IMG/VR virus record: IMGVR_UViG_3300046313_000259
Span: 1 to 28,145 of that record
Direction: 5' to 3' (one strand)
DNA: 28,145 bases
Source: a virus
Below the pieces are notes generated by a model that ran no database searches, had not been told where the DNA came from, and saw only the letters and a program-made list of their open reading frames with translations. Each line of letters opens with the position of its first letter. Positions within the stretch are counted from its first letter, which is position 1. Below are positions 22,052-28,145 of the stretch, piece after piece. The position numbers and the translations under genes are program-made.

Positions 22052-22111
22052 CTATAAATTGTCCTTTTTATTCGTCTATACTAGCTTAAAGCCTATACTT
22101 GCCTTTGTCAA

Positions 22112-24494: not shown

Positions 24495-25793
24495 TTATTT
24501 GAAAGCGTCTTTCGCTGTGTATTTCCGTTTAATAAGGGGCTGTACGGCGTAGCGGAGGCTGTCTAAAACGTGGTTGTGCTTGTCTACAATAGCCGTTGTA
24601 ATATCGCTTGTTCGTTGGTCTACCTTGTATGAGTATAATAATAACTCATTTATCGCCTCTTTACAACGTGGGTGAACTACTATACTTTTATAACCCCTCA
24701 GATGAGCGATACCGTCCTCAACGCTCCCTTTCCACTTGCTAACCGCCTGTATTCGGGGCAAGCCGTGACGTTTCAAGTAGCTAATGCTTTCAGGTCTAGC
24801 ACAATCGGCACGAATAACGCCATTCTCAATTTCAGGCATAGCCTCTTTAATGAAATCGGCGGTTTTGTCAACATCAAGCCCTATTTTGACGGCTTCTTTC
24901 TCAATGTAAAGCGTTTCGTCATGTATCCACACTTTCACGCACGCCGTCGGATCTTGTGAAAATCCAAAGTCCATACCGTACAAAGGCAAGCCCCATGACG
25001 GATCGTCTACCCATTCATACACGGGCGTTTGGGTCTGAACGAGTTCACCAGTGGCTAGCTGTTCGGTGTGTACGTTTGTTTGCACCAATCGCTGTACCTT
25101 ATTCGGGGTGAACTCTCTCACTTCCCACTTGTCTTTAAAAATTTGTGCATCGGTGTGTGTCAAACACTCCCCTAGCCAAATGTGATTATACAAAGCTGGG
25201 TCACGTTCAAGCATCAAACGTCGTTCTAACTCTAGCACTTGAGGGAAGTGGATGTTTTCGGTGTAATTTACTTTGAAGGTGTAAGCCTCTGTGTGCTTGT
25301 TAGCTATGAATAGTTTGTAGACTGGGTCTGATTCAAGGCGTGGGTTCATTGACATCCATATCTCAGAGTTTGGCTCTCTTATCGTCGGTATAAGTATATC
25401 TAGGCTTTCTTGGGAGATAGTCTGGGCTTCTTCTATCCAGCAAATGTTTATGCCCGCCGTCGACTTGATGCTTTCGCTGTTGTGACGCAACCCTTTAAAC
25501 GTGAACTCACTACCATTTTTCGATGTTATAGTGTCACGTTGTATCGTGAAAAACGCTGATAGCCCTAAGTCGTCTATACGCTTGCTTAATAGGCGGTGTA
25601 CACTATCACTTATTGAGTTTTGAAACTCCCTCGCACATAGCACACGCAAGCGTTGCGTTAATGCTCTCAATATCAAAGCATCTGTGAACGTATACGATTT
25701 ACCACTGCCACGACCACCGTAGGCTACCTTGTACCGCTTGGGGCGAAAAAAGTCTTGGCTCCAGTGGGGAAAGCTTAAATCCAGTTGTGGCAA
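24495..25793 (-). CDS. terL: terminase large subunit
   Basis: A 432-residue packaging motor of the PBSX-like Terminase_3 type. Walker A is GGRGSGKS (26-33) after KVAYGG. Walker B with the catalytic Glu is ICWIEEA (117-123), and the coupling region has WMSMNPR. The C-terminal RNase H-like nuclease shows D275 in YGMDFGFSQDP, D330 in VIRADCARPES and D411 in HNHVLDSLRYAVQP, the three expected metal ligands. It pumps DNA into the prohead and cuts concatemers. It follows the small subunit by 54 bases. Confidence 0.95.
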   Translation of the reverse strand: MPQLDLSFPHWSQDFFRPKRYKVAYGGRGSGKSYTFTDALILRALTQRLRVLCAREFQNSISDSVHRLLSKRIDDLGLSAFFTIQRDTITSKNGSEFTFKGLRHNSESIKSTAGINICWIEEAQTISQESLDILIPTIREPNSEIWMSMNPRLESDPVYKLFIANKHTEAYTFKVNYTENIHFPQVLELERRLMLERDPALYNHIWLGECLTHTDAQIFKDKWEVREFTPNKVQRLVQTNVHTEQLATGELVQTQTPVYEWVDDPSWGLPLYGMDFGFSQDPTACVKVWIHDETLYIEKEAVKIGLDVDKTADFIKEAMPEIENGVIRADCARPESISYLKRHGLPRIQAVSKWKGSVEDGIAHLRGYKSIVVHPRCKEAINELLLYSYKVDQRTSDITTAIVDKHNHVLDSLRYAVQPLIKRKYTAKDAFK

Positions 25794-25847: not shown

Positions 25848-26240
25848 CTAGGTATCGCTAGGCTTGGCTTCGCTAAAGTTGACGGTGAAGCTTGGGATCT
25901 GTTCAAAGCCGTGCGTATTGTCGGTGGACTGCTTGTAACCCATTTTGCTATTCGCATAAAACTTAGTAGCATCCAGTGCAATCTTTGGATCATCGTGGAA
26001 AATGTGCCGTTTTAGCTGTCTAGCAACCCTTGCATCAAACAACGGTTTAACCGATTTAAGAAAGTCGCCGTAGTATTTATTAAGGGTGTCTTTGCACATG
26101 CCTAAGGCATCCGCCATTTGCTCCTTTGTTGCTCCATTCATAGCCATACCTTCAAGCAATTCAAGGTTTTCATCCGTCACTTGATGCGGTGCGGTCTTGC
26201 CACTTTTAGGCGTATTCCTAGACGGTTCGCTATAAGGCAT
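25848..26240 (-). CDS. terS: terminase small subunit
   Basis: A 130-residue protein and first gene of the late operon. The N terminus is basic and Pro/Ser-rich. A helix-turn-helix-like region follows (MAMNGATKEQMADALGMCKD, then TLNKYYGDFLKSVK), and a basic helical part with FDARVARQLKRHIFHDDPKI. This is the layout of small terminases, which recognise the packaging site. The call is supported by its place before the large subunit. The ATG is reached after a leader of about 20 bases from a strong promoter, with GGGGAAA as ribosome-binding site. Confidence 0.8.
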   Translation of the reverse strand: MPYSEPSRNTPKSGKTAPHQVTDENLELLEGMAMNGATKEQMADALGMCKDTLNKYYGDFLKSVKPLFDARVARQLKRHIFHDDPKIALDATKFYANSKMGYKQSTDNTHGFEQIPSFTVNFSEAKPSDT

Positions 26241-26265
26241 TCGAAAAGTTTCCCCTTTTTCCTCG

Positions 26266-26295
26266 ATTATGCCAAACTTTACCCCCTTTTGTCAA
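26266..26295 (-). promoter_or_regulatory. late-operon promoter
   Basis: On the minus strand TTGACA (plus 26290-26295) and CATAAT (plus 26266-26271) are 18 bases apart. Initiation near 26259 gives a leader of roughly 20 bases before the terminase small-subunit ATG. The same 18-base spacing is seen at the candidate endolysin promoter. Confidence 0.6.
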
Positions 26296-26307
26296 CCTCT
26301 AGGTGTA

Positions 26308-26323
26308 TGTAACGCATTGTAAC
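26308..26323. promoter_or_regulatory. helically phased direct repeat between divergent promoters
   Basis: TGTAAC occurs at 26308-26313 and again at 26318-26323, exactly ten bases apart (one helical turn). It lies 13 bases upstream of the -35 box of the minus late promoter. This suits an activator or repressor site, but no binding protein is known. Confidence 0.35.
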
Positions 26324-26339
26324 ATTAATCTACAGACTA

Positions 26340-26369
26340 TAGACTTATACTATAGTATAGGCTATACTA
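26340..26369 (+). promoter_or_regulatory. early promoter with overlapping palindromic operators
   Basis: TAGACT (26340-26345) and TATACT (26363-26368) are 17 bases apart, a plausible plus promoter for the genes from 26431. The spacer holds a 14-bp perfect palindrome (26346-26359). A second one, TAGTATAG-G-CTATACTA (26353-26369), covers the -10 box. A protein bound here would block RNA polymerase. Confidence 0.6.
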
Positions 26370-26430
26370 AGTTCATAAGGTTAATCAAACGAGACACCTT
26401 AGTTTAAATGAAAGAAAAGGATTAAAGATT

Positions 26431-26625
26431 ATGAAAGTTTTAATAGCTAAGTTTCAATACGATAGATATACCGTTGATAATATTTTTTACGTGTATGCTT
26501 GCATACACGATAAAAGAGATCGTGTCCTTTTCAGATGCTATAGAGGTGACTTCCCTTATGCAACATACGGGACACTAAAAGAAGTCCTAGAATCTTTTAA
26601 GGACTGCCACTTTTTAAAGGATTAA
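26431..26625 (+). CDS. early hypothetical protein, 64 aa
   Basis: It starts at ATG 26431 with the recurrent AAGGATTAAA motif 14 bases upstream, behind the early promoter. The product has an alternating aromatic/charged pattern (AKFQYDRYTVDNIFYVYACI, then DKRDRVLFRCYRGD) and a helical end (GTLKEVLESFKDCHFLKD); it is soluble, with three Cys. I do not recognise the family. Its last codons (AAG GAT TAA) are part of the next ribosome-binding motif, so the next gene is probably co-translated. As the first early gene it is a candidate for host take-over or counter-defence, but this is by position only. Confidence 0.65.
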   Translation: MKVLIAKFQYDRYTVDNIFYVYACIHDKRDRVLFRCYRGDFPYATYGTLKEVLESFKDCHFLKD

Positions 26626-26631
26626 ACCATT

Positions 26632-26883
26632 ATGTTTGAAACACTAAATCTGTACAAATGCACATCACACCGTTCTTATCACTACTTTCTTAAAGTAGCT
26701 AAAGATTGTAATGTAAAAAGCTATCGCATCACGAGAGATAGTGCCACGAGCTTTAAAGACTGGACGGTGGGAGGTTGCTCAACCTATTTTATCCACGTTG
26801 AAGGCACACTCCCCGATCAAGCGTTACAATATGCCAAACCGTACACCCTGCGGAAAGGATTTAAAGCCTCTGCTTGTTGGTAG
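26632..26883 (+). CDS. early hypothetical protein, 83 aa
   Basis: It starts at ATG 26632, 15 bases from the start of the AAGGATTAAA motif that overlaps the previous stop. The product has TSHRSYHYFLKVAKDCNVKS, YRITRDSATSFKDWTVGG, and a basic C terminus (YTLRKGFKASACW). It is soluble and rich in Tyr, Ser and Cys (four Cys). It shares the start MFE.L with the gene at 27026 but no clear further similarity. The family is unknown. Its 3' end takes part in the inverted repeats of the following intergenic region. Confidence 0.65.
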   Translation: MFETLNLYKCTSHRSYHYFLKVAKDCNVKSYRITRDSATSFKDWTVGGCSTYFIHVEGTLPDQALQYAKPYTLRKGFKASACW

Positions 26884-26936
26884 TACGGTTTACCACCTTT
26901 AAGGCTTTACTTTTTATTAACAGTAACGAAAAAGCC
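26836..26936 (+). other. structured gene end and intergenic region with competing hairpins
   Basis: Inverted repeat A pairs AAACCGTAC (26836-26844) with GTACGGTTT (26883-26891). Repeat B pairs TAAAGCC (26862-26868) with GGCTTTA (26903-26909), which is followed by CTTTTTATT. A third option pairs GGCTTT (26903-26908) with AAAGCC (26931-26936). A and B interleave, so they can form a pseudoknot or exclude one another, as in attenuators. Confidence 0.4.
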
Positions 26937-26962
26937 AAATTAACCGAATCCTTAGATTATTT

Positions 26963-26977
26963 TTATAGCCTATAAAG
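26963..26977. promoter_or_regulatory. second TATAG-S-CTATA operator, upstream of the gene at 27026
   Basis: TTTATAG-C-CTATAAA is a perfect 7-bp inverted repeat with a single central base. Its 11-bp core is the reverse complement of the core at the early promoter (26356-26366). TATAAA (26972-26977) could be a -10 box, but no good -35 box is seen. Confidence 0.5.
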
Positions 26978-27025
26978 CAATTTTTAAAAACCCACAAGCA
27001 TTAAGACTAGAAAAGGATTGAAATT

Positions 27026-27322
27026 ATGTTTGAAGCACTACATTACAAACTTGAAACTACAGTAGAAACCTATTGTAGTATAGACAAAAAAAGCTATACT
27101 TGCGATTCAGTGTATATATTCCCACCCCATGAATACATGACAAAAGGAGGCTATAAAAAGCCTATGCCCCGATTAAAGCTAAACAAAATAAAAAAAGTAA
27201 AAGAGATGCTTGCGTCTCGCCCCACGATTCAAGATTTAGTAAAATACGGCTATAACGTTGCAGCAGATTCAAAAGGTTTTTATTTTAGAGAAGAGGCAAG
27301 AATAACAGAAGAAATAAAATAA
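27026..27322 (+). CDS. early hypothetical protein, 98 aa
   Basis: It starts at ATG 27026 with AAGGATTGAA 12 bases upstream. The N-terminal half is aromatic and beta-like (FEALHYKLETTVETYCSIDK, then SYTCDSVYIFPPHEYMTKGG). A basic linker follows (RLKLNKIKKVKEMLASR), and then a helical or winged part with PTIQDLVKYGYNVAADSKGF. The last segment recalls the helix and turn of small DNA-binding proteins, but too weakly to assign. The protein is basic overall. It lies downstream of a palindromic operator copy, so it may be regulated apart from the first two early genes. Confidence 0.65.
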   Translation: MFEALHYKLETTVETYCSIDKKSYTCDSVYIFPPHEYMTKGGYKKPMPRLKLNKIKKVKEMLASRPTIQDLVKYGYNVAADSKGFYFREEARITEEIK

Positions 27323-27376
27323 AAAGGGATTTATTTACAAAAATCCTACAAGGATTAAATAGAAAAGGGTTAAACC

Positions 27377-27857
27377 ATGGTTACAATTCACGCCATACGG
27401 TGGAATTGAGGGGTTTTTATCTGATATTTTACACGAAAAGGAAATATTCATTGTGTTAAATAAATTTAATGATTTTTATTTTAGTCAAAAGAAAAATATG
27501 AAAAAGAAGGGGAAGTATTATCTTTTTTTATACAATAATGGCTACTCTACAGTAATGTTTGCATATTTTCTCGCGCCTTTTTACGAAGATATAATAAATA
27601 ATTTTACTCTTAACCAGTTTAAGCGTGAACAACGTTTTTCAAAAGTATCAATTGCTGGTATAGACCCCCTTGCTTTAGTACCTGCTTATTTTGGTTTAAA
27701 TGACTTGCTAAACTCACAAAAAGTGGATTTACAAAGTGACGGGGCTTTATATTTTGAGGGAGTTATGAATTATTTTGAGTTTCAGGCACTCAAAAAAAAT
27801 ATAGAGAAGTTTATAATAGATGAGCAATTAGCGGAGGAGTTTCTTATTTTTGATTAA
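27377..27857 (+). pseudogene. early hypothetical gene split by an apparent +1 frameshift, about 158 aa if joined
   Basis: ATG 27377 has the cluster's motif (AAGGGTTAAA) 12 bases upstream, the same spacing as its neighbours, but it runs only ten codons to TGA 27407-27409. One base out of register, an open frame continues without a break from 27363 to TAA 27855-27857. Between 27381 and 27452 it encodes protein-like sequence (LQFTPYGGIEGFLSDILHEK, then EIFIV) that flows into the body from GTG 27453. The body is AT-rich and aromatic (GKYYLFLYNNGYSTVMFAYF) and unknown. It may be a natural frameshift mutant, a sequencing error, a programmed +1 shift, or a shorter gene starting at GTG 27453 (134 aa). 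Confidence 0.5.
27384..27408 (+). other. strong hairpin over the split gene's start region
   Basis: CAATTC (27384-27389) pairs with GAATTG (27403-27408). With one bulged A, four more pairs continue inward to an ATAC loop. It spans the ten-codon frame and its TGA, and would affect translation there. A T tract follows only after AGGGG, so a terminator is less likely. Confidence 0.4.
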
Positions 27858-27965
27858 AGTTTATATCGACGATGTTGGTAGTTTAGATTGCCACCGTTAC
27901 AAAAACCCCCACAAGGATTAAAACTTTTTGAATCCCAAAAAGGATTAAACCCCAAAAAGGATTGT

Positions 27966-27975
27966 GCTATACTAA
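27966..27975 (+). promoter_or_regulatory. possible extended -10 promoter just before a terminator
   Basis: GCTATACTAA is identical to the -10 region of the early promoter (26361-26370), and TG stands before it in extended -10 style. The -35 region is poor (TTAAAC at 17 bases). A transcript from about 27980 would reach the terminator after about 45 bases. Confidence 0.35.
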
Positions 27976-27985
27976 AAACAGAATC

Positions 27986-28024
27986 AGGGGATCGGGCTTT
28001 TTAGCTGACTGCATCCCCTTTTTT
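27986..28024 (+). terminator. rho-independent terminator of the early region
   Basis: AGGGGAT (27986-27992) pairs with ATCCCCT (28013-28019), followed by a T tract to 28024. The 20-base loop can form a small inner stem. The orientation fits the end of the plus-strand early genes, or the end of a short RNA. Confidence 0.75.
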
Positions 28025-28145
28025 GTTGCATACCTTACACACGCCTCTCTAAGCTATCAAAATAGACTTCCCCTTGTCTATCTACCTAAAACGCATTTAA
28101 ACGCCGTGTAGTTGATGCTAGCCATTGCTACACGCATTATCTAAC

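Follow-up and report, generated by a model that had tools for sequence, protein, structure and literature searches.

Two near-identical palindromes lie in the early region of an uncultured tailed phage, one of them on a promoter, and they raise the question of whether a single dimeric regulator of early transcription binds both, as a preliminary description of this DNA proposed. The window analysed here is the whole of a viral record of 28,145 bases. One relative is 47 kb long, and the record is probably a fragment with part of the genome missing. On the minus strand the structural genes run as far as terL (24495-25793) and are followed by a terS-like gene (25848-26240), and from 26431 the plus strand carries small orphan genes without family hits. 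The first three of these early genes, at 26431-26625, 26632-26883 and 27026-27322, encode plus-strand products of 64, 83 and 98 amino acids with no family match, and a search of viral contigs returned no relatives of any of the three. Gene 27453, which is not preceded by the palindromic motif, has a homologue in the relative G002 (46% identity). Neither blastn of 26241-27025 against phage records nor an Rfam scan of 26250-28145 gave a match.

The 11-mer TATAGGCTATA occupies 26356-26366 (site 1), on the early -10 box, as had been described. The second copy, TATAGCCTATA, is present at 26964-26974 (site 2), one base to the left of the 26965-26975 first assigned to it. The two TATAGSCTATA cores are identical except for the central base. 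The preliminary description was also right that they sit in longer perfect inverted repeats with one central base: site 1 is an odd 17-bp palindrome, TAGTATAGGCTATACTA, at 26353-26369, and site 2 an odd 15-bp palindrome, TTTATAGCCTATAAA, at 26962-26976. A perfect 14-bp palindrome, TATACTATAGTATA, at 26346-26359 overlaps the 17-bp one. A scan of the record for TATAGSCTATA found no exact copy beyond the two sites and a single one-mismatch copy at 22087-22097, and a search of viral contigs with the 17-bp palindrome gave no match. The stretch at site 1 is the window's densest cluster of TATAG/CTATA.

The position of the early promoter can be read from relatives, which were taken as phages with TerL proteins of 75-84% identity, plus G014, a contig whose packaging and head block differs. 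Their early region begins with TTGACA, 17 bases, a TATAAT-like -10 box, about 5 bases and then (C)ATAAGGTTAATCAAACGAGACGCCTTAG, and TTGACA/T-17-(-10) stands at this same place, before a conserved leader, in seven distinct relatives. This homology, together with a promoter call, shows where the predicted early promoter of the window lies, and supports anchoring it at site 1: TAGACT-17-TATACT on the plus strand at 26340-26368, with the -35 box at 26340-26345 and the -10 box at 26363-26368. Its -35 box is weaker than that of every relative. The spacer holds the 14-bp palindrome, and the 17-bp palindrome runs from the last part of the spacer across the -10 box. The divergent terS/terL promoter, TTGACA-18-CATAAT on the minus strand at 26266-26295, carries no palindrome and has a similar counterpart upstream of the relatives' terS; it served as a control.

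Short palindromes as such are no rarity in this DNA. Odd 11-bp palindromes number 29 in the window against 31 in shuffles, with no excess, and odd 15-bp palindromes number 4, where shuffles give about 2. A pair of palindromes with a common core, each 15 bp or longer, arose in 0.1-0.6% of shuffled windows, such a pair within 700 bp in 0 of 1500 shuffles of each kind, and a core common to two intergenic regions of these lengths in 0.1% of shuffles (P ~0.001), but these shared-core tests were chosen after the motif had been seen, and the motif was picked by eye from the whole window, so the figures flatter it. When the promoter at site 1 was shuffled with its hexamers fixed, the 14-bp and 17-bp palindromes were both reached in 0 of 4000 shuffles, and the same fixed-hexamer test found nothing at the control terS promoter. 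Symmetry is above chance at site 1, while site 2 taken alone is near chance (P ~0.05). The double dyad at site 1 is thus more than chance.

We tentatively favour, at rather less than even confidence, an operator at site 1: a dyad particular to this lineage of tailed phage, placed on its early promoter and bound by a dimeric regulator. The early transcript would be initiated from 26340-26368 by host RNA polymerase of the sigma-70 type, and the regulator would bind the overlapping palindromes at 26346-26369 and, once bound, would block the polymerase, so that early transcription would be shut off or delayed. Site 2 may then be coincidental, or the same protein may have a further, weaker site there. 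The homology-anchored promoter, the double dyad, the dense TATAG/CTATA cluster and the blank control all argue for an operator at site 1, and so do the relatives that carry other dyads on the same promoter. In G010 the promoter has the dyads TAATATATAATATATTA and TATAATATATTATA, both together at P 0.0008 in fixed-hexamer shuffles, and in G003 the dyad TTATGTATACATAA (P 0.0125). The sequence TGTATACA, which covers the last part of the -10 box and the presumed start, is common to G005, G003, G002 and G014, which as related lineages count as one observation and not four; it has been lost in G001. Aligned promoters therefore point to dyads in some lineages, with a sequence that differs from one to the next, a pattern that lineage-by-lineage drift of operator specificity would produce. 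A match to TATAGACTATA in G005 was also considered as an operator and dropped, as it lies inside a predicted ORF.

Against an operator at site 1, TATAGSCTATA is kept at the early promoter of no relative examined. No notable palindrome lies on the promoter of G007 or on that of G001, and the G007 promoter also gave nothing in fixed-hexamer shuffles. A motif built from TATA favours palindromes at -10 boxes in any case, and the statistics were chosen post hoc. It is possible, if somewhat doubtful, that a promoter rich in AT and in TATA produced the palindromes as a side effect, with no protein binding them, and that the shared core is coincidental. The window's at- or near-chance count of 11-bp and 15-bp palindromes fits such an origin, as does a non-conserved motif in a promoter so rich in TATAG/CTATA. 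It fits less well with a double palindrome that beats shuffles in which the hexamers are held fixed, or with G010, which has the same trait in another sequence.

The proposal that one dimeric regulator acts on both sites, coordinating the early promoter with a second promoter for gene 27026, seems unlikely to us. The two sites do share the 11-bp core bar its central base, to an extent seen rarely in shuffles, and the palindrome centres of both lie 57-70 bp upstream of a start codon, where the start blocks are similar. Site 2, which lies between genes 26632-26883 and 27026-27322, also has a -10-like hexamer, TATAAA, in the same register of its palindrome as TATACT at site 1. However, it has neither a -35 box nor a called promoter, it occurs in no relative, and its palindrome taken by itself is close to chance. 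Its half-site GGCTATA also lies inside gene 27026 at 27149 and 27248, and a 12-bp half of site 2 recurs in that gene at 27148-27159, in each case as ordinary Gly-Tyr codons. Of the original proposal, then, the early promoter at site 1 stands, and the symmetry there is above chance; for site 2 no promoter was found, nor conservation, nor a regulator for the pair.

A regulator was sought among the relatives. The integrase family PF00589 was found in 0 of nine relatives' records and a Cro/CI-type HTH_3 protein in one, with none in the other eight; these records may be fragments, and the window's own genome is probably incomplete. A Pfam search of 45 mostly early proteins from two relatives gave HTH families with one member each. 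As a separate observation, an early-operon protein of G014 has a Cro/CI-type HTH (L062:3378-3803). The lack of a known repressor gene, of HTH_3 in eight of the nine records and of PF00589 in all of them weighs against an operator at site 1. A broader idea, that phages without a detectable integrase or CI-type repressor keep a lineage-variable dyad operator on the early promoter, with the regulator perhaps supplied from orphan early gene cassettes, is one we regard as quite improbable.

A structural role for the palindromes in DNA or RNA, as a cruciform or hairpin and not as an operator, is very improbable: the dyads are perfect, with 0 or 1 central base, but their short arms are rich in AT, a hairpin in RNA would be left with nearly no loop, and the transcript is presumed to start downstream of site 1. 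MerR-type regulators bind promoters with a spacer of 19-20, and spacer binding of that kind was dropped for a spacer of 17.

Cro/CI-type operators are symmetric sites on phage early promoters whose sequence varies by lineage, and site 1 resembles them in both respects. It appears to differ in that the divergent region holds no repressor gene, and the nine relatives' records, which may be fragments, have no integrase match and HTH_3 in one case only.

The operators of controller (C) proteins of type II restriction-modification systems offer a second comparison. C.Esp1396I is a small dimer on dyad sites that overlap promoter elements, and in its C-boxes GAC and GTC flank a central TATA (PMC3758141). 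Dyads with a central TATA overlapping promoter elements are common to both cases, but no C protein or restriction-modification system was identified here, and GAC-TATA-GTC boxes, compared by eye with those published (PMC3758141), are absent from 26330-26370. We do not claim membership of any known operator family for the palindromes.

The candidate control site is fairly ordinary, and may serve as a switch for the early genes. If so, the early promoter would be a handle on early-gene switching in an uncultured phage group, and bait for finding the regulator among the orphan early proteins. Otherwise, it illustrates how easily palindromes arise in TATA-rich promoters.

Two other features of the early region, its leader and the start blocks repeated before its genes, are better conserved than the palindromes. 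The leader, CATAAGGTTAATCAAACGAGACACCTTAG at 26374-26402 on the plus strand, forms the start of the presumed early mRNA. A near-invariant form, CATAAGGTTAATCAAACGAGACGCCTTAG, lies just past the early promoter (G005 29230, G014 40867, G007 7642 and others); it includes a short TAAGG/CCTTA stem and occurs in ten viral stretches, and it is kept despite unrelated packaging genes. In the window, the leader folds no better than expected by chance. An 18-base pattern of the leader core had six matches in genome contigs, roughly the number expected by chance in 257 Gb, and so no host was assigned.

A start block like TTAAAGAAAAGGATTAAAGATTATG is repeated before the early genes at 26409-26433, 26617-26634 and 27012-27028, and in relatives at G002 1926, 2431 and 2647 and G007 7047 and 7603, where it is often preceded by a hairpin of the GGGGGCTTAGCCCCC type. 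These blocks, unlike the palindromes, resemble the start-associated sequences of cluster K mycobacteriophages, repeated blocks before small non-structural genes, some with upstream inverted repeats (PMC3203893), though sequence and phage group differ. Genes 26632 and 27026 also have in common a 21-nt start (26629-26649 and 27023-27043, 90% identical), and a single cassette may be the source of their first codons.

At the end of gene 26632, overlapping inverted repeats at 26838-26915 (AAACCGTAC/GTACGGTTT and AAAGCCT/AGGCTTT) could give alternative hairpins, with folding only weakly better than chance. Further downstream, at 27960-28026, an extended -10 element, TGCTATACT, precedes 53 nt that fold into a strong hairpin (z -2.9) and end in TTTTTT, possibly a short RNA or a promoter-terminator pair.
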